Source of the DNA: Telopea speciosissima
Taxonomy: Eukaryota; Streptophyta; Magnoliopsida; Proteales; Proteaceae
Assembly: GCF_018873765.1 (NCBI RefSeq)
Contig: NC_057925.1
Span: 50,852,010-50,916,009, forward strand
Direction of reading: 5' to 3'
Length of the DNA: 64,000 nucleotides
Positions 3,127 through 63,670 of the stretch are shown here, one piece after another (within the stretch, counting starts at the first letter, position 1; each line of letters begins with the position of its first letter). The notes beneath the pieces are model-generated. The model was not told the DNA's origin and made no database searches. It was given only the letters and a program-made list of their open reading frames with translations. A program made the position numbers and the translations under genes.

Positions 3127-5014
3127 ATGGCGGAGGTATATAACTACCAAGGGGAGTTAACTGGTTATGGGGCGTGGGCATGCATCACTGCTGCTTCCTG
3201 TGGTCTATTATTCGGCTACGAAATTGGTATCTCTGCTGCTGCTGGTGTCACCACATCCATGTCTTACTTTCTCGATGACTTCTTCTTCTTCTTCTTCTGT
3301 GTTCGAGGACAGCATGATTCTCAGGTTGTTTACATATTCTCTTTATCTGCAGGCTGCTTTGGTGGCATCGCTCTTCGCTTCCACCGTCACCAGAAAATCT
3401 GGTAGGAGAAGATCAATCTGTATTGGGGTTCTCATCTTTCTCTTGGGAGCGATTATATAAGCAGCGCGGCTGTGAACCTGAGAATGCTTATTGTCGCACG
3501 GATTTTGCTCGGTATTGGACTTGGATTCATCATCCAGGTTTGTTTGTTTGTTTGTTTTTTATATGTCAATTAAAAACTCTAGAGTTAGATGGAACGCGTT
3601 AAATTAAACCCTTTAAGTAACCCAATTTATGACCTATATACTGCAAATGGACGAGCCCCATTAATTAGGTCATTCCTTCTCTTTATTAACTTCAATTCTT
3701 GATGCATTGCAGATGCATGCAGTCGGTGCCACTGTACCTATCAGAGATGGCTCCTTACAATTACCGTAGAGCTATAAACATGTATTTCCAGCTTATGATC
3801 ACTTTGGGCATCATCTTTGCCAATCTCATAAACGGCTTAACATCTTTGACGATCAATGCCAGGTGGGGCTGGCGCTTGAGCTTGGGCAGCGGCGCCACCA
3901 TCCCTGCCGCCGCCATCATAACCATCGGAGCCTACTTCCTCCCTGACACACCCAACTCTCTTATCGAACGTAGCTTGACAAACGAGGCCCATGAGAAGCT
4001 CCAACGCATCCGTGGCAGTAGTGTCTGTGTGGACGAGGAGTTCAAGAAGACCTTGTCACCGCTTGTGATGTGTCAAAACAGGTTCATCACCCTTGGAAGA
4101 GCATTATGATGGAGCGGAAATACAGACCTCACCTCTTCATGTCCATTGCAATTCCTTTTCTACAGCAGCTCACTGGCATCAATGTCATAATCTTCTATGT
4201 TCCCCTCTTGTTTAAGATGCTGGGTTTTGGTGACTTTGCTTCCATCATCTCGTCCCTTATCATTGTCTTTGTTAACTTATCGGTCACCTTACTACTCTAC
4301 CTCTCATTTTCATCCCATAGATTTGGGAGATTTGGTCGGAGAACCCTCTTCTTGGTTGGTGGACTCCAAATGCTTATCTGCCAGGTATATATATATATAT
4401 ATATTTGTTTTTCTTATCGTCTCGTGTCTGAGAATGCAAAATCGATCTAGAATTATATATATCTTATGTGTGTCTGTCTGTATGCGCGTGTGCAGATCAT
4501 AATATATAGGAGTACTAATTAAGAATGCATTTGGAAAAAAAGGTGCGATGGAGGGGCCGGCCCTCGATACGGAGGGGGCGTTCGTCGATCTGTCATTGGG
4601 TACTTGTGTTGCTGTGGTATTGTTGATCTGTCTTTTCGTATCGGGATTTGCGATTTCGTGGGGGCCATTGGGTTGGCTAGTTCCTAGTGAGATCTTACCT
4701 CTTGAGATCCGATCGGCAGTGAGATCTTACCTCTTGAGATCCGATCGGTTGAACAAAGTATCAATGTTGCAGTAAACATGTTGTTCACCTTCTTGATCGG
4801 CCAATTCTTCCTGAAGATGTTGTGTGGCATGGAGTACTATGGTCTATTCTTCTTCTTTGCCGCTTGGAAGCTGATCATGACTGTTTTCATCTATTTTTTT
4901 CTACCCGAGACTGAAGGGATTCCCGTTGAAAAGATGTATCAGGTGTGGACTAGCCACTCGTACTGGAGCAAGTTCATACTAGTTGACACATTCCCTCAAT
5001 TTGGAGATCTGTAA
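3127..5014 (+). pseudogene. STP-type monosaccharide/H+ symporter, broken copy
   Basis: This is a degraded member of the plant sugar transport protein (STP, major facilitator) family, which in intact form imports hexoses with protons at the plasma membrane. It reads from MAEVYNYQG through [11 protein letters not shown], then [102 protein letters not shown] and [14 protein letters not shown], in family order. Introns are at about 3539-3722 and 4385-4495. It is not translatable. There is a frame slip in the ttc-repeat tract near 3280-3300, a stop plus frame change at about 3458-3462, a frame change near 4070, a stop just before 4530 at the start of the last exon, and a 32-bp tandem duplication at 4686-4748. 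The last exon has also lost part of the usual segment after MLICQ. TATATATA near 3053 could be the old core promoter. The family is certain, and function in its present state is unlikely. Confidence 0.88.
4686..4748 (+). repeat. 32-bp tandem duplication inside the STP pseudogene
   Basis: Thirty-one bases starting agtgagatcttacc are repeated exactly with a period of 32 bp: 4686-4716, one extra base, then 4718-4748. Because 32 is not a multiple of three, the frame changes inside the conserved [11 protein letters not shown] loop, and the downstream INVAVNM segment lies in another frame. Confidence 0.95.
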
Positions 5015-5965: not shown

Positions 5966-6067
5966 TTGAATACTGATCGAAAATTGCCGACGCCATAAAT
6001 AGAGAGAAAAGAGACTTGGTACATGTTGCTGATTTATAGAAGTAGTACAGACTACATATCATAAAAG

Positions 6068-6276
6068 ATGCAGAAATTTAAAACTAAGAAACATCATAAG
6101 TTTCAAAGAATCCAAGAATTGAAGAGATATCAGTTGTCTATCCTCAAGTATGAATCCATGCATGCCACTTAACAGATGCAGAAATTTAAAACTAAGAAAC
6201 ATCTTAAGTTTCAAAGAATTCAAGATTTAAAGAGTTCTCAGTTGTCTATCCTCAAGTATGAATCGATTCAACATTC
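6068..6276 (+). repeat. Two-copy tandem repeat, 108-bp period
   Basis: Copy 1 (6068-6175) and copy 2 (6176 to about 6276) both start atgcagaaatttaaaactaag and share cagttgtctatcctcaag. They differ at a few positions and diverge at the ends. The small frame starting at 6176 is part of this repeat and has no family resemblance. Confidence 0.85.
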
Positions 6277-10806: not shown

Positions 10807-10972
10807 GGGAAGTAGCTTTCTGTCCGGGATAGTGGCCTACACCAGCACTCCCATGTGTCTATCTCTCTCCTCAAAACAAGGGGGTAGAGATATCTTTTCA
10901 TATGGGGAGGAGAGAGATAGACTCATGGGAATGCTGGCGTAGGCCACACTCCTGGACAGAGTTCTTTTTCCC
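10807..10972. mobile_element. Foldback MITE, about 60-bp arms
   Basis: The arms are near reverse complements. The left arm runs from gggaagtagctttctgtcc through gtggcctacaccagca and ctatctctctcctc. The right arm, read in reverse, starts gggaaaaagaactctgtcc and continues gtggcctacgccagca. The termini resemble those of the foldbacks at 26.3 and 29.1 kb (GGGAAAA). The possible 9-bp flanks match only in part. Confidence 0.7.
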
Positions 10973-11360
10973 TTAATATTTATACCAAATTGGTTTTGAT
11001 GAAAATTACTAATCTAAGGAGCTTTTAGACTTGGTTATTAAAAAAAAAGTAAGAGCTGATGTACTTAATACATCATCATCAATTAGAATTCTGAGCCAAA
11101 ATCACTCTATAAATCTCTTGGTGATTGGTTTTATTTTAATTTAGATAAAGAAAGTGTTACATGTACCAAGGTTTTGTGGACTAAACAGTCATCTTATAGC
11201 ATTAAAATATTATAACAAAAGCCTGTCAAATTAAGAGAACGGGAGGATACATTCAATTTAATCTATTGTGATCAAATAAATCTTTCTATGGATTAATATT
11301 TTTCCTTATTTTTTTCTCTACTTTTGGTTACAGACATAAAAGTTAAATTTTGGACTGCGA

Positions 11361-12860
11361 ATGGAAAAGATGAAGATATTTATCAAGGTTGTATCAACTG
11401 GTGTATTCTTTGGATGTGTTGTAAACAACTCTGATACAATTTATATGATCAAGTCTATAATCGAAGAAAAGGAAAGAATCACACCCAACCATCAGATGAT
11501 TGTTTTCAATGGGATAATACTAGAGGATCATAGGACCCTTGCATCTTACAGTATTGAAAAATTTTCCATGCTTTATGTGGCCTTCAAACACAAGGAGATC
11601 ACCAGCCTATCTGTGGGTAATGAGACAGAACATGTGAAATCAAATCAAGGGGGCAATGAAGTTCATATATCTGTGCTAGATTTCGTTGGAAAAAACATTC
11701 TAAAGGTTAATACAACGAACAACATCGAGCTTCTCAAGGCAATGGTTGAAAGCAAGACTCAAATTTCACGAAAGGAGCAAAAAATGTTTTTTTACAGCAC
11801 ACATGAAGTAGTTCAACTTGAAGACGGTAGAACTCTAGATAGTTATGGTATTAAGGAAAATTCCCAATTACGGATGTTGGCTCCATATTTGAAGATATTC
11901 ATTAAGATGCCACAGGTTCGAAATTCTTTTCAACTTGATCTCTATAGTTTTCTGACAGTCCATGATGTAAAGAAGAAGATTTGGGATAAGATGGGAATTG
12001 CAGAAGATAAACAAACCCTCATCTATTCTGGAAGATCCCTTGATGATGATAAAACTTTAGCAACTTATAGCCTCCAAAATAATTCTGTTCTTCATGCATT
12101 TTTTGGGTTCAAAGATGGAAGCCAAGAGCTAAAGTTATTTATCCATGATAAGAGAAATGAAGTTACCTTTCAACTCATGGTGCAAAAGTGGTATAGTGTG
12201 CTGAACATCAAGACCCTCATTGAAAGTATGGTGGAGATCCCAATAGGCCTTCAAGAGCTTAACTACTTACAGGAGAATTTGAAGACTTGGAAAACCTTGA
12301 CCCACTATAACATTGAATGTAACTCAACTCTCTACTTATCTGTTCATGGTCATCCAATACAAATATTCATCAAGGAACCTCAAGTAAAAGGGAGTGACAA
12401 CAATATCATTATGCTTGAAGTGAAGAATAGTGATACCATTGATGAAATAATTGCAATGATTCCGCAAGAGTATATGATTAGTGGAGGAATTTTCGATCCA
12501 TATTGTCTCTTCCTCGGTGAAACTCGACTAAAGAATGAATTAACTCTAGCACATTATGACATTGCATCAGGTATGTTCCTCCAATTGGAACGCAGTATTC
12601 AAGTTAATGTTGGCATTCCTAGTGGTGAAGTGATCACAGTCGATTTAAAACCTATGGATTTAATAGATACTGTAAAGGAGAAGATTGAAGATTTGTGCGG
12701 AATTCCATGGCAGCTACAGACACTCACCTACCTTGGAGATGAAGTGGATAAGTTATATACACTTGAAGATTATGAACTTCATTTGGGTAGTCTTTGGAAT
12801 CTAAGATGGCAGTTTGGCGGCAATTATTGGTCATTCTTTTGGCCTACTTATGGAGTTTAA
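11361..12860 (+). CDS. Hexameric ubiquitin-like (UBL) array protein, 499 aa
   Basis: A single uninterrupted exon encodes six diverged ubiquitin folds in tandem, at about residues 4-77, 101-174, 177-250, 257-332, 336-413 and 415-487. Each shows the ubiquitin pattern: a KIFIK or IFIK first strand, an I..K..I helix, an (L/I)(I/V)(F/Y).G turn and a (D/E)..TL..Y.I/L block. Unlike polyubiquitin, the inner units do not end in Gly-Gly, so deubiquitinases should not process them. Only the last unit ends in FGG (485-487), followed by a 12-residue aromatic tail. Lys48 is replaced in the units I aligned (Ile, Arg and Asp in units 1, 3 and 6); Lys63 is kept in unit 1. The start at 11361 is supported by an in-frame TAA 24 bases upstream. 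A second Met at codon 4 would match the canonical ubiquitin N-terminus. Arabidopsis has multi-UBL proteins of this general kind. I infer a non-cleaved ubiquitin-like scaffold or adaptor; its partner is unknown. Confidence 0.87.
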   Translation: MEKMKIFIKVVSTGVFFGCVVNNSDTIYMIKSIIEEKERITPNHQMIVFNGIILEDHRTLASYSIEKFSMLYVAFKHKEITSLSVGNETEHVKSNQGGNEVHISVLDFVGKNILKVNTTNNIELLKAMVESKTQISRKEQKMFFYSTHEVVQLEDGRTLDSYGIKENSQLRMLAPYLKIFIKMPQVRNSFQLDLYSFLTVHDVKKKIWDKMGIAEDKQTLIYSGRSLDDDKTLATYSLQNNSVLHAFFGFKDGSQELKLFIHDKRNEVTFQLMVQKWYSVLNIKTLIESMVEIPIGLQELNYLQENLKTWKTLTHYNIECNSTLYLSVHGHPIQIFIKEPQVKGSDNNIIMLEVKNSDTIDEIIAMIPQEYMISGGIFDPYCLFLGETRLKNELTLAHYDIASGMFLQLERSIQVNVGIPSGEVITVDLKPMDLIDTVKEKIEDLCGIPWQLQTLTYLGDEVDKLYTLEDYELHLGSLWNLRWQFGGNYWSFFWPTYGV

Positions 12861-13489
12861 ACTCCCCAAAAAAAAAATTAGGACTGGATTGAGAATCCCA
12901 TTCAACAATTTCTTTTATTTTACATTTTTTGACATCTTGATTGACCATGTGTGAAATTTCAACATTAAATCATTTACCTTTTGATGTATGTCCATGCACC
13001 TTTTTTTTTATTTCACCAGCACAATCTTCTCTGCTTTTTATCTTCTTACATTTATTTCTTGCTTTTTTGTTTATAGCCTAATTTTAGCTCTAAGAGAGAT
13101 AAAGAGGCAGTTAATACTAAAAAATTATACTTTTGCACCTTTTCATGGGATTGGTTTTTTGCAGTGACTCATTCAGGCTCTCAGCAGTTATTTATATTAG
13201 TGAAAATTTTGTGAGTTTCAATTATTCAATGTAAATTTTGTGAGTTTCAGTTATAGCTCTTACATCATTCAATCTCTTGTGCCTGATTAACCCCTCCTAA
13301 TCACCAAATGGGTCTAGAAATTAATTGACCCATGAATCACTGAAAGAATATATGAATATCATGATTTTAAACTTTTAAGCTAAGCTAGCTATAAGTAGCT
13401 ATCAGTATTGGAAGAATAAGTGAGAAAGAAAAAAAAGCTGCCATGAAAAATTACAGTAGACCTTTTCTGCTTTACTAATCATGAATTTC
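12861..13489. other. Intergenic between convergent genes
   Basis: This holds the presumed 3' UTRs of the ubiquitin-like array gene (plus) and the RIC gene (minus). A short direct repeat, aaattttgtgagtttca, occurs at about 13203 and 13232. No other feature is seen. Confidence 0.4.
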
Positions 13490-14565
13490 TCAAGAAATTC
13501 CATGACCTCCTCTCTCTCCTTCCCCATTACCCAAGCGTTTTAATGGTGACTTTGGACCAATGTCACTGTTCAATTCGCCAACGCCTCCAGATCCAGGATC
13601 AGAGAAGGGAGAAGTATAAATTGTGGTAGACGGGGCTTTGGATCTAGAAGGCCTAGTTGATCCACCACCACCTGATGATTCCTTGGACTTCCTACGACGA
13701 GACTTTTTTGGATCAGCTGGCTGGTCTGGCAAGGATGAATCCATACTGGCGTTCTGGGCTCGCCTTGATGATCTGGATGATACGGTGACATCTCGTGAAG
13801 GGGAACTAATTGAAACTGCGGTTGTGGACTGGTGACGCCTTGCTTGCTTTGGCTGATCTATGCTTGGTGAGTTGTTGACTGATGAAGGAGAACCAAGGAA
13901 TGGTTGCCGTCTCGATGGTTTTGGTAAGTCCGGTATATCTCTAGCACCTGTCTGATGTAAATCTGCAAACAAGCATATTGATGTTAGTTGTCTCTGTAAC
14001 TTTAAATAGTTGGCAGAAACCATACATATCTATAGCTCAAATGCTCAATTCAATGGAATTTGGGCATTTATCTGTATTAATATGAATCTTTGGGTGTTGA
14101 TGAAGGTAAACAGAAGCACCTTTAGCTTTGCTTTCAGCAACTCCATTAACTGGTGATGCTGATGGAAGTTCTGATTCTGGCCTAAACTCATTCATCTGCA
14201 CAGGTAGGAAGAACACATTAATACTGTAAATTCAAAAGCCAGAGATATCTAAATTATTAATAGAAAGCATACCCAGCTGGGTGACTCTATGGATGGACCA
14301 TCCCATCCTATGTGTGCTACATGCTTTACATCTGTGGGATAACCAATCTCCATTTCCTGCTGCTCTTTACCATTATTATCTGCATCAATATGCATACATT
14401 TTATCAACCTCTGTAGTGTATTGTTCTGTGTTCATATATCATGATTCATGAATGAAGTTAACCATGAATGATATAACAAGCAACCATCTTGACAGGTTTT
14501 TACATACCAAATATCTGAGAAATGTATCTTAGACCTTTTAGAAGTCCCTTCATCTTGGTTGACAT
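13490..14565 (-). CDS. ROP-interactive CRIB motif-containing protein (RIC family), 237 aa
   Basis: RIC proteins bind GTP-loaded ROP/RAC GTPases through a CRIB motif and relay polarity or cytoskeleton signals at the plasma membrane. Four exons on the minus strand join in phase: 14565-14508, 14379-14273, 14195-14120 and 13962-13490 (714 nt, ending in a stop at 13490). The start [19 protein letters not shown] is the family's typical N-terminus. Exon 2 holds the complete CRIB motif [17 protein letters not shown], including the conserved HVAHIGWDG core, followed by SPSW/MNEF across the junction. The remainder is a low-complexity Ser/Arg/Pro-rich tail with basic stretches (KKSRRRK), plausibly disordered and membrane-attracted. 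The N-terminus and short upstream segment resemble the RIC10/RIC11 subgroup more than others, but I do not assign a number. The 5' UTR probably continues past 14640 and may be spliced. Confidence 0.9.
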
Positions 14566-35900: not shown

Positions 35901-38900
35901 CTTGCTGTAGAAGAGAAAGAGACTTCTATTGAGCTTTCTTCTTTGCTTGCTAGGGAAGAAAGTTTTCTTAAGCAAAAGTCTAGAATCAAGTGGCTGGATC
36001 TGGGTGACTTGAATACTGCCTACTTTCAACGGTCTGTGAAAGCAAGAGCCAATGCAAACTCTATTTCTCAGCTTTCTCGCCCGGATGGTTCTCTTGTCAC
36101 TTCAGTTGATGGCATCAAAGCCTTGGCTGTTCAACATTTTAAAGACTTATTCACCAGCCATCAGGTGAATCATTCTCCCATCCTTGACCACTTGCTCAAC
36201 AAGTTTGTTGCCCCAGAGCTGCATGCTTTTTTGTGTGCCATTCCAAATGAAGAGGAAATTGTAGCAGCAATACACTCCCTCAAGGTGAATGATGCTCCGG
36301 GCCCTGATGGTTTTAGCATGGGATTCATTTTAGCCTACTGAGATATCATCAAAATTGACCTCATTGCCGCCATTGAGAGGTTCTTCTTCAATCCCAATCA
36401 GATCAAGAGCATCAACCACACTTTTTTTTGTCTCATCCCTAAAAAGGAAGGGGCAAATGTCATGAATGACTTCAGGCCCATTGGCCTCTGCAACCTGCTT
36501 TACAAGTTTATAGCCAAGATTCTTGCTAGAAGACTAAAAGGTGTTGTGGACCCACTAGTCAGTGACAACCAATCTGCCTTTATTCCTGGAAGAAATATTG
36601 CGAACAACATCCTTTTGTGCAATGACATAATGAGAGGCTTTGACAAGAAAAACCATGCTCCTTCTATCCTTATGAAGATTGATATTCATAAGACCTTTAA
36701 CTCGCTCAGGTGGGATTTTATTGCTCAAGTCATGATCAAGATGGGGTTTCCTATGGTCTTTGTCAACTGGATTTCCTCTAACATCCCGTCCCCAATGTTC
36801 TCGGTTCTAGTTAATGGCAGCTTGGCAGGCTACTTTGGTGCTTCAGTGGGCATTCGTCAAGGCTGTCCTCTCTCCCCTTACTTATTTACCTTGGCTTTGG
36901 AAGTTCTTTTCAGAGATATCCAAATTAGCACTGATCAGATGCTTATCACTCCGATGGCCAAATATAAAGCTCTCAAGCTTACTCACTTAGCCTTTGCTGA
37001 TAAATTGATGTTTTTCTCTAAGGCCTCGATTACCTCGCTTGAGTCCATCATGCTCTGTCTCCAGCACTTCCATGAGCTCTCAGGTCTGTGCATCAATCCT
37101 GCCAAGTCCCTGCTATTCTTTGCGAGGGTTTCAGAGCTAGACAAATCAGCCTTCCTGGAGAAATCTGGCATTCTCAAAGGCCACCTTCCAGTCAAATACC
37201 TGGGCCTCCCTTTGATCCCGACAAGACTATCAGCTCACCACTGCAGCCCTATGCTTAATCTTATTAGGAAGAGGCTCCAGCTTTAGAAGTGCAAGCTTCT
37301 ATCCTATGCTGGCAGATTGGTCCTCATCAGATCAGTTCTGGAATCGTCTTATATATATTGGTCAGGCATCTTTGGGCTCCCTCAATCTGTTATTAAATCT
37401 CTGGAGTCCCTCATGGCCTCTTTTCTTTGGAAGGGCAATGAATCAGCTAGATTCCTTTATCCTATCAGTTGGGCAGCTGTGTGTCTCCCCAAAAAAGAAG
37501 GCGGTCTAGGCATTCATAAAACAAAAGAAGTGAATTCTGCAGGCATCATCAAGCTCATTTGGAAGATAGCCTCTAAGTAGAAAAGTATCTGGGTTGACTG
37601 GTTATATTCAGGTCTTCTTCGCCAGGACTCTATCTAGACTGCTTCAGCCTTATATGATGCCTCTTGGGTCTGGTGGAAGATCCTCGCTTGTCATCATCTG
37701 GTCCTCCAAGTCATTCGCTTCAGTATTGGTGATGGGCTTTTCTCCTACTTGTGGTTGGACCACTAACACCCCATGGGAATTCTTCTCCACTTGGTCACTC
37801 CAAGAACCATTTATGCTTCAGGTCTCAACAGGCTTTCCTTAGTGGCTGACATCATTGATCAAGCTGGCTGGGCTCCTCCCCCATCCTCATCCTCCTCCCT
37901 CGGTCTCATCTAAAATGAGCTGCATACCATTACCAAAAGGCCTACATCTAGAGGTGACTGTGTTACCTAGAAGACCAACAATTCTTGCTCCTTTTCAGCC
38001 AAGGCCGCCCGGAATCTCATCCGGCTGAATGGCCCTTTGGCCCCATGGCGCAAGCTTCTCTGGTTCAAGCATCACATCCCTCGTTACTGCTTCACCGCCT
38101 AGAGAATCTTCAACAATTGCCTCCCAACTCAGGCTTTCCTTTGCTCTAGACAGATCTTAGTCTCTCCTACTTGTTGTCTTTGTTGGAATAATATTGAAGA
38201 CTCGGATCATCTTTTCTTTGAATGCCCTACTGCTGCTGCCATCTGGAAAGGAATCTTGTCTAAGTGCTGGCCTTCCCGCAGAAGAATCCTCCTTTTCTCA
38301 AGGGAATGGATCTGGATTGACATGACCTTTGCTGGCCACTCTATTTGCGACTCAGTCGGCAAATTAGCTTTTTGTGCAACTCTCAACCACATTTGGATGG
38401 AGCGCAATATCAAGAAATGGACCTCCAACTCTCGCTCATAATCAGAAGATTTGGGATTCCATTTCCTTTGAAATTAAAGCAAAGTTATCGCTCACTCCTA
38501 CTTGTTCTAATACCCCAAGGAATAGACTCATTGTTGATTCCAGGGGCCTATCAAATGTTTCTTTTGTTGCTTCTGCTGGCCCCTAGCTAAGCTAGGGCCT
38601 AGCTTTTATTTTTCCTTCTTCCCTCGGGGCCCCCCGTTTCCCTTTCCCTTTTGGTAATGAAATTCTTATTCACCCAAAAAAAAAAAATGGGGATGTATCT
38701 TATATGGTAAAGCTAGGCAGGTGTAGAGGAGTCTAATGAAATAAGTTTTATAAGTTTTGGATGATTAGAAGTAGGTTAGATGTGTTTGGGCAGCAACTAG
38801 GGTTAGGGTTTTGAAAGGTGGAAGATGATGGAATCTAGGATTTATAATAACAAGAAATCAGGTGGTTGAATGGACTTAATATTTAGGTTGAGTATGAGCA

Positions 38901-49900: not shown

Positions 49901-50739
49901 TCGGTTAGTGGGCAAGCTAATCTACCTTTCTCACACACGACCCGACATTGCGATTCTTGTGAGTTTGGTGAGCCGGTTCATGCATGATCCCTATTCCTCT
50001 CATATGGATGCGATCCAGTCGTATTTTGAGGTATTTGAAGTCTGCTCCAGAAAGGGAATCCTCTTATCTCCCACGGGTCGCCTTAAGATTGAAGCCTATC
50101 GATGCCGATTGGGTGGTTCTCCTGACAGAAATCTATCTCTGGTTCTTGTTCCTTTGTTGGTGGGAACCTTATACCTGGCGCGTGAAGCGAGAATGTTGTG
50201 GCCAGTCCGATCTTTGAAGCCGAGTTTCGTGCGATGGCCCGAGGAATTTGTGAACCGTGGCTTAAAGGATTATTACAGGATATCGGTGTTGGTTGTCCAT
50301 CTTCCCGTGATGCTTTATTGTGACAATAAAGCGACCATTAACGTGCTCCATAACCCTGTCCAAGCGTGATCGTACTAAACACGTGGAGGTTGACCGACAT
50401 TTCATCGAGAGAAACTTGAGGCCGGCCTCATTTGTGTTCCTTTTGTGAAGTCTCTTGATCAAGTGGTGATGTGTTCACTAAGGGACCGAGTAGTGCAATG
50501 TTTCATCCTATCTTAGTCAAGTTGGGCATGCATGATATATATGCTCAACCGAGGGAAGTGTTAGATATATGGCGAATACCGTGGGGTATTACGGACCTCT
50601 TTCTTTGTTATTTTATTAAGTGGTTTAGTCCCACATTGCTCATGTACATAATTTTATTCTTTTATTACTCTTATAAATAAAGATGTGCTTGGGGTGAATA
50701 AATCATCCAAGCCTTTCCCTAATTTTAAATCTCTCTACA
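46922..50739 (+). mobile_element. Younger nested Copia element, 3.8 kb, gag-less
   Basis: The LTRs at 46922-47106 and 50559-50739 begin tgttagatatatgg and end ctctctaca. Their last 135 or so bases are identical. The exact 5-bp repeat ggact flanks it at 46917-46921 and 50740-50744. The tRNA primer site tggtatcagagc is at 47107-47118. The leader (47119 to about 47880) runs straight into integrase sequence, so gag and protease are deleted. Confidence 0.92.
47880..50530 (+). pseudogene. Copia polyprotein remnant (integrase, RT, RNase H), many frame breaks
   Basis: In successive frames it gives FVSFIDCHSRNTWVYLLH and RSDNGTEF (integrase), RNVPSQYWG and LINRLPSRVLN, then reverse transcriptase pieces ([36 protein letters not shown]) and RNase H (LIYLSHTRPDI, YCDNKATINVLHNPVQ, KHVEVDRHFI). 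Single-base indels are frequent, so no frame stays open for long. Most frames between 47.9 and 50.5 kb on the opposite strand are shadows. Confidence 0.85.
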
Positions 50740-50745
50740 GGACTT

Positions 50746-53700
50746 GATCTGGCCACCACATTTTGCTTCTTGCTACGCCATGTAACTAGATTGCCTCCAA
50801 TAAAGGTGCAATACCCTGTCACTGACTTACGATTTGGAAAGCCACCCCAATCAGCATCTGTATAGGCTTCAATCCTCAAGTGATCATGTGGGGATAAGAG
50901 AATTCCTTTCCCTGGAGCTACCTTCAAGTAACGAAGAATGCGAAGAACAGCCTCCATATGTGTAGAATAGGGATCATGCATGAACTGGCTTAAAAGGCTC
51001 ACATCAAAGGCAATGTCAGGTCGTGTGTGAGATAAGTAGATCAGTTTTCCCACCAACCTCTGATAACGACCTCTTTCAACTGGTTCTCCATCACTTTCCT
51101 TTAGCCTGGTGTTAGCTTCAAGAGGAGTATCACTTAGATGACAACCCAACAGCCCTATCTCTGATAAAAGGTCTAGGATGTATTTCCTCTTGGAAAGATA
51201 GATGCCTTTTGATGATCTGGCAACTTCTATCTCAAGAAAATACTTGAGTTTTCCTAGGTCCTTGATCTTAAACTCACATCCAAGGAACTCCTTAAGGTGA
51301 TTTATCTCCTCACTGTCATTTCCAATCACAACTATGTCATCTACATATACAATAAGGATTGTGACCTTATCGCCATGACGTTTGATAAACAGAGTGTGAT
51401 CAGCATTGCTTTGTTTGAACCCCACAGATGTCATGGCCTTATAAAATCTGCCAAACCAAGCTCTAGGAGACTGTTTGAGGCCATATAGAGTACGCTTCAA
51501 CTTGCAAACTTGGCCACTGGTTGTGTCAAAGGAAAAACCAGGAGGAACTTCCATGTACACTTCCTCATCAAGCTCTCCATGGAGGAAAGCATTTTTCACA
51601 ACAAGTTATTGTAGATCCCACCCTAGATTCACAGCACATGACAATAAAACTCTAACTGTGTTCAGCTTGGCAACTGGGGCAAAGGTCTCCTGGTAATCAA
51701 TCCCATAGGTTTGAGTGAATCCTTTAGCCACAAGTCTTGCCTTATATCTGTCTACACTGCCATCAATTTTTTGCTTGACCACAAACACCCACTTGCACCC
51801 AACTGGTTTCTTCCCTGAAGGAAGAGCTACAATGTGCCATGTGTTATTTTTCTTTAAGGCATTCATTTCTTCTACCATGGTTGCTTTTCACTTCAAATCT
51901 GTAAGCGCCTCTTGCCAATTCTGTGGAATACCAACAGAGGAAAGAGAAGAAACAAATGTACGATAGGAAGTAGATAATGCATCATAAGAAAAAACATGAG
52001 ATATAGGGTGTTGAGTGCAAGACCTAGTGCCTTTACGGTGAGCAATAGGTAAATCAAGATCAAGACAAGGTTGAGGAGAAGAGGGATTACCAATGGAGCT
52101 TAGTTCTGGCTCAGGAGGCTCCAATTGGACAGGTTCAAGTGTTGTTGTGGTAGTGATATCAACTTGCTTGTTCTTCTTTAACTTCTTCCGATAAAAGGTT
52201 GTGAGGTTGGGATCATCTATCAACTTCTTGTTAACATGAGGAGTAGGCTCTCCCTGTGTTGGAATCTCAGTGATGATGGGAGGAAAAAACTCATGGACAG
52301 CCACATCTTCACTATTACTAGTACTCTCCCCCTGAAGAGGAGGCGGGGAATAGTAGGAAACTATCTCATGAAAGATAACATCCATACTCACCATAGTACG
52401 GCGAGTAGGAGGAAAGTAGCACTGATAACCCTTCTAGGTTGGAGAACACCCAAGAAAAATACACCGCAGCCCACGTGCTTCAAATTTGCCAGGAGAATGT
52501 GTGTCACGAACATAATAGACACATCCAAAAGTGCGGGGAGGAACAATAAAAGAGGCAGACCTCTCCAGTATCTCAATAGGAGATCAAGCACCCAAAAAAC
52601 GAGTAGGCATGCGGTTTATGAGATAAGCAACGGTAAGAACAGCATTACTCCAATATTGGAAAGGGACATGGTGATCAAATATGAGAGCACGGGCTACATC
52701 CAAGAGGTGGCAGTTCTTTCTTTCGGCCACCCCATTTTGGGCAGGGGTGTCAACACTACTAGTTTAGTGAATAACGTCATGATCAGCTAGGTATTTTTTG
52801 AACTGGCCCTCTGTGTACTCAGTACCATTATTACTCCGAAGAATTTTAATGGTACCTTGGTACGGGGTTTGAGCCATTTTATGGAATAGCTGAAAACAAC
52901 GGAATACCTCACTCTTATGTTGCATCATATAAACCCAAGTAAGACAGGAATGGCAATCTATAAAAGTAACAAACTAACGATGACCAAAAATGGAAGTACG
53001 ACGAGAGGGACCTCACACATCAGTATGATCCAAATGAAAAACAGCACTGCTTCTTTGATTAGTAGGAGAATAAGTAGAAAGAGTTTGTTTAGCCATAACA
53101 CAGGCTTCACAAAAAAACTCAGTTCGATTACATTCTTGAACTAGTTTAGGAAACAAAATAGATAAAATCCCCAAGGGGGGATGACCCAAATGGCAGTGCC
53201 ATTGATACAAAGTAGTAGAAAATGCAGACGGAAGCTGAGGATGAGGAGAAGGAAGCTGAGAAGGCAAGGTTGTTGATGTAGAAGTGCCCTCAAGCAAGTA
53301 GAGACCACCATGGACCCTACCCAATCCAATCGTCCTCCCATGCGCCAGATCCTGGAAAACATAATGATCAGGATACAATGTTACTTTACAGTTCAAATCT
53401 CGGGTCAAACTACTAATAGAAAGAAGATTAGTAGTAAACTTAGGAATATGTAAAACTGAAGACAGGGTAAGAGAGGGAGAGCAGCTTATGGAACCCTTCC
53501 CAGATATAGAAGAGAGGGTGTCATCTGCTACTCGAACTTTGTCTTTACCAGATGAAGGGAAATACTTATGAAATAGATTTGAAGAACTTGTCATGTGGTC
53601 AGTGGCACCGGAATCTATAATCCATGGAGTGGAAACAACAAATGCACAATGACCACCGAAAGGAATACCTGACTGTGCCAAATGGGAACCTGAAGTTGTT

Positions 53701-54720
53701 GGTGCATTGGCAATGGAGGATGCAGCAGAAGCAGATGAAGCCCTCAACATGTGACAGAAGGCTTGTAGCTCCTTTGGGGAAAGACCCACATCAGTAGGAG
53801 GTGAAGTGTCAACTGCCTCTATGTGATGAGCCTTGGTCTTAGGTTTACCCTTGGCTGCACGTTTGGCTTCAAAGTCAGCTGGCTTCCCACGGAGCTTCCA
53901 ACAAGTAGCCTTTGTGTGAATTGGTTTGTTGCAATGCTCACATCGAATTGCCTCTTTCGAAGAAGCACCGAAATGAGCTAATCTCTATAGTGGGAGTAGG
54001 GTTGGCCCCAACCTGGAGGGCTGATCGGTCAATGGTAGGAGCGTGCAACATAGCAGCTCGGCGACTCTCCTCTGTGAGGACCAATGCATAGGACTGCTCC
54101 AAAGAAGGAAAAGGAACTCTGCTGAAAATCTAAACCCGAAGCTGATCGTACTCGACATTCAAACCAACAAGGAAATCATACACTCGAATCTTATCCACAT
54201 GCTTGTGATATACAGCAATATTTGCAGCATTGGTAGGCTAGTAGTCGGAATAATGATCAAGTTTCTGCCATATGCTTCGGAGGGCTGCCCAGTACTGGGA
54301 GACAGATAGTTCCTTCTGGGTGGTGTCATGAACCTTCTTACAGAGTTCATACACCTAGGCATCATTCCCAACTAGACCATATATCTCATTTGCACCTGCC
54401 CAGATCTGGGTTGTAGTATCTAGTAACAAATACCCGCTAGAAATATCAGATTGCATCGAGTTGAGTAAGAAAGACATCACATTAGAGTCATTTGCAATCC
54501 ATCTTTTCTTGGTAGGACCTTCTTCAGCTGGTTTAACAGTGGTGCCAGTGATGTGTCCAATAAGGTCTCGGCTTGCAATAGTCAAGTACATGGATCTGGA
54601 CCACATCAAGTAGTTGGTATTGTCAACCTTAAGGGCAGCAGCATAAGGGTGATAATCACTCCTAGCCTGTCCATCGGAGGATGCTGAAGTGACATCTGAA
54701 ACAGTCCCTGAGCCAGTCAT
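50746..54720 (-). pseudogene. Copia gag-pol polyprotein (main part), broken by a few stops
   Basis: On the minus strand, gag starts at 54720 (MTGSGTVSDV) and contains YLMWSRSMYLTI. A zinc knuckle CEHCNKPIHTKATC lies near 53.9 kb, then the protease motif WIIDSGATDHM, a GAG-pre-integrase HCHLGH...CEAC segment, integrase, and reverse transcriptase ([34 protein letters not shown]). The RT/RNase H frame 51599-50703 is open for nearly 300 residues with its YVDD site intact. Stops occur in gag, in integrase and before NAFLHG, so the whole is not translatable. Confidence 0.88.
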
Positions 54721-58598: not shown

Positions 58599-61500
58599 AG
58601 TTGGAAGTTAAGGGATGCAAGAGAACAAGGAGAGAAATGAAGGTAGAAGGCTGAGGAAGAAGGAGAAGAAGAGAATATGAGGCAATGCTATGTATTAGAG
58701 AATAGACTCCAACATACCTATATTACTTCACTAATGAGCTAAAAGAAATTGCATACACCTCCCTAGGGAGGTAAAAGGTAAAATAGAAAAAATACAATAT
58801 ACGGCAACTAGTTAACTAACTAGTTCCTAAAGTGCCCCTACAACATATAAACTCTAACACTCCCCCTCAAGCTAGAGAATAAATATCATACATTCTCAGC
58901 TTGCATGATAGGGTACCAAACTGAAGAGAAGAAAGCCCTTTAGTAAAGATGTCTGCCAATTGATCACCAGTCTTCACAAAAGGGGTGCAAATGCAACCAG
59001 AGTCTATTTTCTCCTTGATGAAGTACCTATCCACTTCGATGTGCTTTGTTCTGTCATGTTGCACCGAATTGTGAGCAATGCTTATAGCTGTCTTGTTATC
59101 ACAATAGAGCCGCATGGGATCATTAGTATCAAACCCCAACTCTTGAACCAATCGTTTCAGCCATATAAGTTCACAAACTCCATAAGCCATTGCCCTAAAC
59201 TCTGCCTCTGCACTGGATCTAGCTACAACAGGTTATTTCTTGCTTCTCCATGTGACTAAATTACCACCAACAAATGTACAATAGCCAGATGTAGATCTTC
59301 TGTCTGAGATGGATCCAGCCCAATCAACATCTGTGAAGCCCTCTATCCTCAGGTGATCATGTCTGGCATACGATAGTCCTTTCCATGGGGAGGACTTCAA
59401 GTATCTAAAGATACGGTATACAGCATCCAAGTGCCCACTCTTGGGGGCATGCATAAACTGACTCACTACTCCCACTGCATAAGAAATATCTGGGCGAGTC
59501 ATAGATAGGTAGATAAGTTTCCTCACTAATCTCTGGTACTTCCCTGCATCAACAAGAGAGGGACTACAATCTTCTCCTAGTTTGTGATTCTGCTCAATAG
59601 GAGAACTTGCTGGTTTGCAGCCTAACATCCCTGTCTCTGTCAACAAAATCAAGAACAAACTTTCGTTGACATATGTTGATTCCTCTCTTGGTCCTTGATA
59701 CTTCAATGCCTAAGAAATACTTCAAGGGACCCAGATCTTTAATTTCAAACTGTTGAGCTATGTAGTTTTTCAGTTTATCTATCCCAGCCATATCATCTCC
59801 AGTGACTACAATATCATCAACATAGACAATGAGGGTTGTGATGGTACCATTGGCCCGCTTGGTAAAGAGAGTGTAGTCAGCTTGACTCTGGGAATATCCA
59901 TTCTTCAAAATAGCCTGTCGAAAGCGCTCAAACCATGCCTTTGGTGACTATTTGAGTCCATATAGTGCCTTCTTGAGGAGACACAAGTTCCCTTCAGCTG
60001 AAGGTATTTTGAAGCCTGGTGGGGTTAGCATGTACACTTCCTCTTCCAAGTCACCATGAAGAAAGGCATTCTTCACATCTAACTGATATAATGGCCAATC
60101 TTTATTAGCAACCAATAATAAAAGGACTCTTATAGAGTTGTGCTTAGCCACAGGAGCAAATGTCTCTTGATAGTCAATCCTATAGACTTGACTGTACCCC
60201 TTGGCCACCAACCTTGCTTTGTATCTCTCCACAGTACCATCAGATTTATACTTGATTGTGTAAACCCATCTGCATCCAACTGGGACACGTCTCTTGGAAA
60301 GATCCACCAATTGCCAAGTAACATTCTTTTCAAGAGCCATCATCTTATCAGACATAGCTTGTCTCCACTTTGGGTCAGACATAGCATCAGTAACATTCCT
60401 GGGAATAGAAGCAGTAGAGAGAGCAGCAATAAAGGCAAGACCTGTAAGAGAAAGAGCATCATAGGAAACAAACTGGGCTATAGGATTAGTACAAGCTCTT
60501 TTCCCTTTTCTAACAGCAATAAGAAGGTCTAAATCAGATGGAGGAGAAGGGATGTCACCTGATTGAGGAGAATGAATCTCAAGATGTGGATCTGGATCCA
60601 AAGAGGACTCTTGGCAGGTCGTCTTTCCTTCGTTATGCAAGCCTACACCCCGTTTGTATTTAATGTGGCAATCCTTCTCCTCACCAGAACCACTTTCAAC
60701 AACCAATTTTGTATTCACATCCACATCCACAGTCATGTGCTTTCAAATGTCAAGCATAAAGGGAGAGATAGGTAGAGGATAATGAAGAAAATCAGCAGCC
60801 TGTTCACTTCCACAATTCTCCTCCTGAAGAGGATGCTAAGAAGGAGCAAAGAAAGGGACAGACTCAAGGAAGGTGACATCTTTGGAGATTAGGCACTTGC
60901 AAGAAGAGGGTGATAGCACTTGTAACCCTTGGTAGTAGAAGAGTACCCAAGAAAGAGACACTTGAGAGCTTTAGGATCAAGTTTAGTACGATGGGGTTTG
61001 TTAACATGCATATAACAAACACAGCCAAAGACTTTAGGAGGGAGAGAGAAAGCAGAAACCTGTGGAGACAAGATGTCTAAGGGAGATTTGAAATCAAGAA
61101 GTTTGGTAGGCATACGATTAATAAGAAAGGAAGCAGTGAGAAGAGCTGCAGACCAGAAGGTCTTGGGAACATGCATGCCAAACAAGAGACTACGGGTGAC
61201 CTCCAATAAATGGCGATTTTTCCTCTCAGTAACCCCATTCTGTTGGGGTGTGTCAACACACGCGAGCTGATGGATAATGCCATCATTAGTAAAGAAGGCT
61301 TGAAGGCCACTAAATATGTATTCTCTCCTTTATCAAACCGAACAATTTTGATACGAGTATCAAATTGAGTAAAAATCATTTGATAAAAATTCTGAAATGC
61401 ATCACAAACATCACTTTTATGTTTCATAAGAACAGTCCAAGTAGCACGAGAAAAATCATCAACAAATGACACAAAGTAACGATAGCCAAGTAAAGAGGTA

Positions 61501-63670
61501 GTAGGGGAAGGTCCCCAAACATCAGTATGCACAATATGGAAGGGAACTGTGGATCTATTGCCACTGTAAGGACAAGAAGAGTGACAATGTTTAGCAAATA
61601 GACATGGTTCACACTGAAATACATGGGAAGAAGGAATGGAAGAAAACAAATGTGGCAATTTTTGCCTCATAACACTAAAGGAAGGGTGGCTCAACCGTTG
61701 ATGCCACAACATCACAGAGTCAACAGTACTATGGTCGCTACGCCTGCATACATAGGACTAAGCAGTAGATAGGGGTGATGATCCTGGATCAAGAAGGTAG
61801 AGTCCATTTTCCTCCCGTCCACTGCTAATAATCCTCTTTGTCACCAGATCCTGAAAAACACAATGAGAAGGAAAGAAGGTAACACAACAATTCAAGGATT
61901 TGGTGAGATGTTTTACAGATAACAGGTTAGTAGCAAGGTTAGGAACATGAAGAATAGAGTCAAGAGAAATAGTAGAAGTAACTCGAACAGTACCTTTACC
62001 AGAGATAAGAGAATGAGAACTATCAACAATTGTAACCTTACCCTTACTAGAACAAATGGTTTAGGAATCAAAAAACTGAGACATCCCAGTCATATGGTCT
62101 GTGGCACCAGAGTCAATGATCCAATGGTGGGAAGATGTAGAAGCCAGTAAGGCAGAAGCAGAAGAATGGAACTCTACAGGAGTAGTAGAAGAGTAGTGGG
62201 GCTGCAATATCCGGTGTAGGGCTGCATTATCATCCTGAATGGTGTCTGTCTGCAATCGAGATGGAAGTCCCATAGGCTCAACCTCAAGCCTCATAGAAGA
62301 TGTTCTAGCTCCCCCTCTCCTACTGCCATGCATACCAGGGGGGATAGCCATAAAGTATCCAACATCTCTCTTGGATGTGTCCATAATTCCCACAGTAGTC
62401 ACAGCTGAACCTATTTCCTCCAATAGCTGACATAATGTAGGAATGCACAAACAAAGGGGATGATACCCAAATCCAATGGGGAGTATATTCTCAACCCAAA
62501 AAGAAATTTTCAAACACTAGTAATTGCAGTCCAGGTAGCAAACCAATCTGATACTTCAACAATATCCAATTCCACCATATGCTTCAAGGTATAATGGCAT
62601 CATACAACAACACGAGAGACTCAGACAACACACCTCACCAACACCAAGTAGCTGAAAGTATCACATACCATCTAGGTTGGTAGCTCCCTTCTTCAACAGT
62701 AGCACCTTCTATCCATTATAAAACGACCCATAATCTTGAAACAATATAACTCAGCAAATAAAACCCATCAAATAGGTTCAATACAGTAGTATATCACAAA
62801 ACAGCCTATATTTCAACAACTGGCAGCATTATAGAGCATCACAGTTTGGAGTTGCAGAGAAAGAGGGCTAGATATCACTAGCTGAGCCTATATAGGCTTG
62901 AAAGTAGACTCCAAGGCAACTCCACAGGACCTGATTTCATCTCCAACTGACCTTGGATGAAGGAGAAACAAGAAAAACTTCCCAAAACTGGCGGAGTTAC
63001 TGTAGCAGCAGCATAAAAAGTGAGTTGCAGACCTTGGACTTTCCTCCTTTGCAACCAATGTTTTGGGGGCTTGAAAGGGGACCCTAGGGCGACTCCAATG
63101 GGCCAGGTCCAAGCTTCAACAAAGCCAAGATGAGGGAGAACAATGGCTGTTTCAGAAAAAGGAACAGTAATTTCTCGGGTTACTGTTCACATTGATTTGG
63201 GCTTCAAACAGTCAAGTCTTCACATGAAGACCTAGCTTAGTGCTTCCATAGGCTTCATCAAGAGATATGGCATGATTTCTTCAAAGTTTTCACATATCAG
63301 CCTCTTCCTGGGAACCCCTTTGTAACCTAGGGTTCCAAAGAGAGGGAAAGGAGGTGGAGAGCTTGTAGGATGACTCTCAAACCAGAAACGGAGGGCGCTC
63401 TGATACCAAGTTGGAAGTTAAGGGATGCAAGAGAACAAGGAGAGAAATGAAGGTAGAAGGTTGAAGAAGAAGGAGAAGAAGAGAATATGGTGCAATGCTA
63501 TGTATTGGAGAATGGACTCCAACACACCTGTATTACTTCACTAATGAGCTAAAAGAAATTACATACACCTCCCTAGGGAGGTAAAAGGTAAAACAGAAAA
63601 AATACAATATAAGGCAACTAGTTAACTAACTAGTTCCTAAAGTACCCCCTACAACATATAAACTCTAACA
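58599..63670 (-). mobile_element. Copia LTR retrotransposon, 5.1 kb, gag mostly lost
   Basis: The LTRs are 58599-58859 and 63409-63670, differing at about twelve positions plus one indel, which makes it older than the 46.4-kb element by this measure. On the minus strand the primer-binding site (reverse of ctgatacca, 63400-63408) follows the 5' LTR. The polypurine tract (reverse of ctccccctcaagc) precedes the 3' LTR. The flanks agttg and tgttg differ at one base. About 0.9 kb of non-coding leader precedes the first coding match, so most of gag is absent. Confidence 0.9.
58867..62513 (-). pseudogene. Copia pol polyprotein with zinc knuckle, broken
   Basis: In order it carries a zinc knuckle CDYCGNYGHIQERC near 62.39 kb, the protease motif WIIDSGATDHM, a GAG-pre-integrase region (LWHQRLSHPS, CEPCLFAKH), integrase (FVSFVDDFSRATWTVLMKH, NGVTERKNRHLLE) and the Copia linker. 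Reverse transcriptase follows ([33 protein letters not shown]), then RNase H (DVDWAGSISDRRSTSGY, YCDNKTAISIAHNSVQ, ADIFTKGLSS), ending ...YDIYSLA at 58867. Several frame changes and stops are present. This polyprotein resembles the fragment at 31.4-32.9 kb. Confidence 0.9.

Follow-up and report, generated by a model that had tools for sequence, protein, structure and literature searches.

The window examined here (the whole stretch of 64,000 nucleotides of Telopea speciosissima DNA) contains a single unbroken reading frame of 499 codons that encodes six homologous ubiquitin-like units in succession. The core of the ubiquitin fold is kept in these units, and the position of Lys48 and the cleavable junctions of polyubiquitin are lost. 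The best explanation that we can offer, although we hold it only tentatively, is that a head-to-tail gene of the polyubiquitin type gave rise to an uncleaved single chain, which would act non-covalently as a ubiquitin-like scaffold with several surfaces.

Six ubiquitin-like units in one open frame

ORF analysis places the frame at 11361..12860 on the forward strand. An in-frame stop lies 21 bases 5′ of its first ATG, and each of the other five frames has 25-53 stops across the same interval. The first-pass annotation, made from the sequence alone, had proposed one frame of 499 residues with a product of about 57 kDa, in agreement with the calculated mass of 57.7 kDa (pI 5.6). The units start at residues 4, 101, 177, 257, 333 and 413, a regular head-to-tail spacing of 76-97 residues. 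The features of the gene and of its immediate flanks are the following:

11049, forward strand: donor-like GTAAG, partner for a possible 5′ UTR intron (consensus match only)
11108..11113, forward strand: TATA-box-like TATAAA (consensus match only)
11332..11333, forward strand: AG that may act as a splice acceptor, preceded by a tract rich in T and 27 bases 5′ of the ATG
11361..12860, forward strand: six-unit ubiquitin-like ORF, 499 amino acids (ORF list, Pfam)
11370..11588, forward strand: unit 1 (residues 4-76), the nearest to ubiquitin at 43% (PF00240, 51.3 bits)
11589..11660, forward strand: linker after unit 1, 24 residues, with Gly-Gly at 97-98 (11649-11654)
11661..11888, forward strand: unit 2 (residues 101-176; PF00240, 32.6 bits)
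11889..12128, forward strand: unit 3 (residues 177-256), ending in Asp-Gly and then SQE (PF00240, 60.5 bits)
12129..12356, forward strand: unit 4 (residues 257-332), without the hydrophobic patch (PF00240, 28.0 bits)
12357..12596, forward strand: unit 5 (residues 333-412), with the lowest score of the six, which by itself misses the Pfam gathering cut-off (PF00240, 23.7 bits)
12597..12821, forward strand: unit 6 (residues 413-487), ending in WQF-Gly-Gly, with the Gly-Gly at 12816-12821 (PF00240, 33.3 bits)
12822..12857, forward strand: C-terminal tail, 12 residues, aromatic, NYWSFFWPTYGV
12964..12969, forward strand: possible polyadenylation signal ATTAAA (consensus match only)

The whole protein matches the Pfam ubiquitin family PF00240 in six stretches (E 2.9e-57). 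When the units are scanned singly, PF00240 is the best family for all six and its gathering cut-off of 25.4 bits is exceeded by five, unit 5 being the exception. A single ubiquitin sequence used as a phmmer query recovers six domains at 7.0-39.3 bits (39.2 for unit 3), whereas the best domain over 1000 residue shuffles of the protein reached 2.2 bits. A chance likeness to ubiquitin is thereby ruled out and the six-unit array is genuine. The first-pass annotation had recognised six successive ubiquitin-type folds and had proposed a profile search of each unit; both the per-unit scan and the distance from the shuffles bear out six ubiquitin-like units at the level of sequence. With tblastn, ubiquitin finds five of the six units in the window, unit 3 being unlisted, and no further convincing ubiquitin fragment was found there (best E outside the gene 0.35).

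The TATA-like motif and the putative 5′ UTR intron are mutually exclusive, because position 11108 would fall inside an intron running from 11049 to 11333. Taken as a set, the TATA-like, donor-like, acceptor-like and ATTAAA motifs are what one would look for around a complete gene, whether or not its 5′ UTR has an intron. The earlier description of the gene as intronless holds for its coding frame, but it may not extend to the 5′ UTR, where the acceptor-like AG makes an intron possible.

The surroundings of the gene are of mixed content. A foldback at 10807-10972, about 390 bases 5′ of the gene, has 66-base arms that are 83% complementary and 34 bases apart (z -13.3 versus shuffles), and looks like a MITE. 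On the forward strand at 3690-5011, three ordered open stretches match the sugar transporter family PF00083 and are likely to be exons of one such transporter gene. A LINE-type reverse transcriptase (PF00078) and pieces of copia-type Pol (RVT_2, Pol_BBD, gag_pre-integrs) are spread over 36342-37283 (forward), 50706-51605 (reverse) and 53016-53984 (reverse), and further copia-like fragments were recognised by eye at 58870-62516 (reverse). The transporter exons and these reverse transcriptases by themselves suggest a flowering plant. An open stretch of 179 residues at 13493-14029 (reverse), rich in Ser, Arg and Pro, is without a Pfam match, and a 101-base repeat is present at 6062-6270 in two tandem copies, 91% identical and 108 bases apart. 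No tRNA and no Rfam family at gathering score was found in the window.

Divergence, junctions and selection

Identity to ubiquitin ranges from 30.1 to 43.4% and identity between units from 16.7 to 31.6%, so that the near-identical 76-residue units of polyubiquitin are not found here and the strong divergence of the units from one another, noted in the first pass, is now put in figures. In the six-unit alignment, buried positions match ubiquitin in 81 of 120 cells and the other positions in 74 of 310, by a list of buried residues that we take to be right for ubiquitin. Ile36, Thr55, Leu56 and Tyr59 are retained in every unit, and Lys27 and Gln41 in five of the six. Lys48 is retained in none and Lys63 in one, and the chain lysines of polyubiquitin are thus not kept; the loss of Lys48, earlier reported for those units that had been aligned, extends to all six.

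The Leu8-Ile44-Val70 patch is the surface used by most ubiquitin receptors. The residues at these three positions are, from unit 1 to unit 6, V/V/A, F/F/L, P/I/F, K/N/S, P/F/E and P/T/R, which makes the patch hydrophobic in units 1-3 and mixed in unit 5, whereas polar or charged residues prevail in units 4 and 6.

No junction has LRLRGG, and Gly-Gly is absent from four of the five internal junctions (2/3; 3/4, with Asp-Gly; 4/5, with a single Gly; and 5/6), most of positions 73-76 being missing at some of them. The polyubiquitin arrangement, with LRLRGG or Gly-Gly at every junction, is therefore not present. At junction 1/2 the Gly-Gly at residues 97-98 is displaced into the linker, two residues short of unit 2. 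The earlier statement that no Gly-Gly links the units is accordingly right for four internal junctions and wrong for the linker after unit 1. It had also overlooked the Gly-Gly at 486-487, which closes unit 6 after WQF and is followed by the 12-residue tail; extra residues past the last unit are a trait shared with polyubiquitin.

Three Gly-Gly pairs are present in the protein versus 1.6 expected from its composition. Two of them fall inside boundary windows that make up 4.8% of positions, a result equalled by 93 of 20000 shuffles, which is suggestive only since the boundary windows were picked after inspection of the sequence. The terminal pair stands at positions 75-76 in one alignment with a one-residue gap, and one residue short when the alignment is ungapped. 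This suggests that both boundary pairs may be read as relics of polyubiquitin, of which the terminal one is perhaps still used.

In order to evaluate the open frame, six ubiquitins were diverged in a neutral simulation by random substitutions only, with no insertions or deletions and with 200 replicates per level of identity. The frame was still open in 9 of 200 replicates at 91% identity, in 4 of 200 at 83% and in none of 200 once identity was 76% or less. At about 37% identity the neutral expectation is about 20 stops, whereas 499 codons are observed to be open, and an old pseudogene is ruled out because no neutral frame among 200 stayed open at this divergence. The pN/pS ratio between units is 0.50-1.03 and falls below 1 in 14 of the 15 pairs, with synonymous sites so near saturation that the ratio holds little information. 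Since the frame is open beyond neutral expectation and the buried positions are kept, the pattern shows, as far as a sequence can speak of it, that the product was in the past long selected as a folded protein, which does not imply present-day activity.

Origin of the array and its possible working

A profile made from the six units only ranks ubiquitin first among solved structures, and the best 60 of the 356 matched structure sequences are by name ubiquitin, ubiquitin fusions and engineered variants, with one exception labelled Uba1. For five of the six units ubiquitin is a closer match than any sister unit, whereas unit 4 stands at 30.1% identity with ubiquitin and 30.3% with unit 3. The plurality consensus of the units matches ubiquitin at 29 of its 52 called positions and NEDD8 at 23. 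In the tree, the ubiquitin branch is near zero and the unit branches measure 0.6-2.1 substitutions per site, with weak supports of 30-59. The units share non-ubiquitin residues in 66 pairs versus 44.6 +/- 7.2 under a pure star model, a level reached in 11 of 2000 simulations. Because of this excess, not all of the units are independent descendants of intact ubiquitin, and the present units would therefore derive from an ancestral array that was probably somewhat diverged already or partly re-duplicated.

Ubiquitin repeats are described as kept uniform by concerted evolution, the disputed alternative being strong purifying selection together with birth-and-death evolution (PMC10457151, in part). 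We propose that the present array is a nuclear protein-coding gene which would descend from a head-to-tail gene of the polyubiquitin type, and whose units may have escaped such homogenisation and then diverged largely separately. Since the cleavable LRLRGG junctions are gone, the product, if the gene is expressed as we infer, would stay one lasting chain of six ubiquitin folds, each unit presumably folding and none being cut from its neighbours. It would act without covalent attachment, as a scaffold that presents several distinct ubiquitin-like surfaces: units 1-3 may still offer receptors or ligases a hydrophobic patch of ubiquitin type, and the C-terminal units may make other contacts or serve for spacing only. 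The imitation of a ubiquitin chain, a role that the first-pass annotation had put forward, is weakly favoured by the hydrophobic patch of units 1-3. Units 4 and 6 have no Ile44-type patch and would be unable to bind such partners in the usual manner, which makes it hard to see all six units together imitating a ubiquitin chain and leaves units 1-3 as the main candidates for such mimicry. Six far-drifted units with their fold pattern and frame kept would amount to a natural experiment in how a binding scaffold can be made out of ubiquitin. Were the gene expressed, its protein would offer a test object for plant ubiquitin receptors and deubiquitinases in the form of an uncleavable ubiquitin-like chain of natural origin.

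The array could instead be a relic, i.e. a once-functional multi-unit gene whose function or expression was lost too recently for stops to have accumulated, a reading that we judge unlikely without dismissing it. The strong sequence divergence would fit such a history, as would the retroelement-rich surroundings and the MITE-like hairpin upstream. However, it has to contend with 499 open codons at a divergence where every simulated frame was closed, and with TATA-like and polyadenylation-like motifs that are in place, although motifs of this kind are common by chance. Assembly of the array by shuffling of distinct pre-existing ubiquitin-like domains (Rad23, NEDD8 and SUMO types) could explain the low identity among units and the grouping of unit 6 with NEDD8 at a support of 54. 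It could also explain why unit 3 passes the cut-offs of Rad60-SLD (33.3 versus 23.8 bits) and Ubiquitin_2 (26.2 versus 23.1), as does the whole protein, and why the sole NCBIfam match of the protein is Rad23, even if far under its cut-off (49.2 versus 207.3). We nonetheless find such an assembly very improbable, given that PF00240 tops all six units, that their starts are regularly spaced head to tail, and that, in a comparison restricted to ubiquitin and NEDD8, every unit has more positions in common with ubiquitin (21-31 versus 15-23 identical positions of 70-71).

Two further explanations turn on the fate of the chain after translation. A precursor still cut to monomers that would serve as divergent ubiquitins recalls polyubiquitin by its head-to-tail layout and, going by the unit numbers of polyubiquitin, by its unit count, yet we give it almost no credence, given the state of the junctions described above and the absence of Lys48 from six units and of Lys63 from five. 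Cleavable polyubiquitin is rejected on the lost junctions, and the claim made in the first pass that the array is not processed internally in the manner of polyubiquitin is supported by the sequence. The Gly-Gly that closes unit 6 ahead of the tail could also mean that a protease trims the 12 residues and that the whole chain is then attached like an oversized ISG15 or FAT10. There are precedents for parts of this scheme, since FAT10 is conjugated through a CYCIGG end that has only Gly-Gly in common with ubiquitin (PMC9378703, in part), chicken OASL is reported to conjugate despite its 59 kDa, and avian OASLs have several residues beyond LRLRGG (PMC8764230, in part). But the WQF before Gly-Gly is unlike LRLR, the pair reaches positions 75-76 only by means of the alignment gap, and FAT10 relies on an E1 of its own, UBA6 (PMC9378703, in part), which leaves such a modifier a distinctly poor prospect. 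For a six-domain protein matured only C-terminally and then conjugated whole to its targets we see very little chance; were it so, the plant would in a single step add a preformed "chain" that resists deubiquitinases.

Comparison with known ubiquitin systems

Among the titles and abstract openings of the matches listed from the open-licence literature, no description of a six-unit diverged ubiquitin array was found, and we do not claim a first description. Three pattern matches in viral contigs and 24 in bacterial and archaeal genomes were not confirmed by tblastn, a search with a single-protein query that reaches close relatives only, and phage records gave no match to the 499-residue protein. 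Plasmid records gave one match, a ubiquitin-family protein of Ruminococcus albus (43.5% over 29% of the query), which was rejected as a relative of the array. The matched gene, annotated "ubiquitin family protein", lies on plasmid pRUMAL01 of Ruminococcus albus 7 (L001 1438-2178) and is a case of ubiquitin-like domains in a bacterium.

Outside plants, human OASL has two ubiquitin-like domains that cannot be conjugated and that reportedly imitate polyubiquitin on RIG-I (PMC8764230 and PMC6019448, both in part), which gives a precedent for tandem units serving as a chain mimic without conjugation. It resembles the product proposed here in having tandem ubiquitin folds in one chain and, in its mammalian form, no LRLRGG. 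The tandem units of OASL alone had no antiviral activity (PMC6019448, in part), and because of this OASL is not a precedent for a stand-alone array. Unlike the present protein, OASL is an animal protein with two units joined to an OAS domain, and no gene relation is claimed. FAT10 is, to our knowledge, confined to vertebrates. ISG15 and FAT10 likewise combine a pair of ubiquitin folds in a single chain that closes with Gly-Gly (PMC8764230 and PMC9378703, both in part), and differ by their two units and dedicated conjugation, ISG15 being described elsewhere as vertebrate only. The divergent ubiquitins of Plasmodium are another case of ubiquitin genes freed from sequence conservation, but the divergence there concerns ribosomal fusions and a one-codon insertion, and the polyubiquitin repeats still evolve in concert (PMC10457151, in part).

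Closer to the present gene, plant polyubiquitin (UBQ) genes have an uninterrupted coding frame, as it does, with ubiquitin folds head to tail in that one frame. They also share an extension past the last unit (PMC3928566, in part), whereas the units described here are only 30-43% identical to ubiquitin and have lost the cleavable junctions and Lys48. Arabidopsis has 77 genes with PF00240, and 16 of these, classed as UBQ or UBQ-like, have at least two conserved repeats; owing to sequence diversification, conjugatable ubiquitin is said to be encoded by some members of the family but not by every one (PMC11174952, in part). Several PF00240 units in one plant protein are thus common to both cases (six here), and the 16 UBQ and UBQ-like genes are set apart from ours, going by their description in that partial source, by repeats that are conserved there and diverged here. 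The Arabidopsis 7SL RNA1 and 7SL RNA2 (EVE1) entries are named "Ubiquitin domain-containing protein" and AT4G05230-AT4G05310 "ubiquitin-like superfamily"; these proteins measure 129-415 amino acids and are ubiquitin-binding by Gene Ontology (PMC9400066, in part). Compared by names and lengths, they are like the present protein in their ubiquitin-type names and unlike it in being shorter than 499 residues. Multi-repeat, sequence-diversified ubiquitin genes are therefore already known in Arabidopsis, and the Telopea gene broadly fits that kind.
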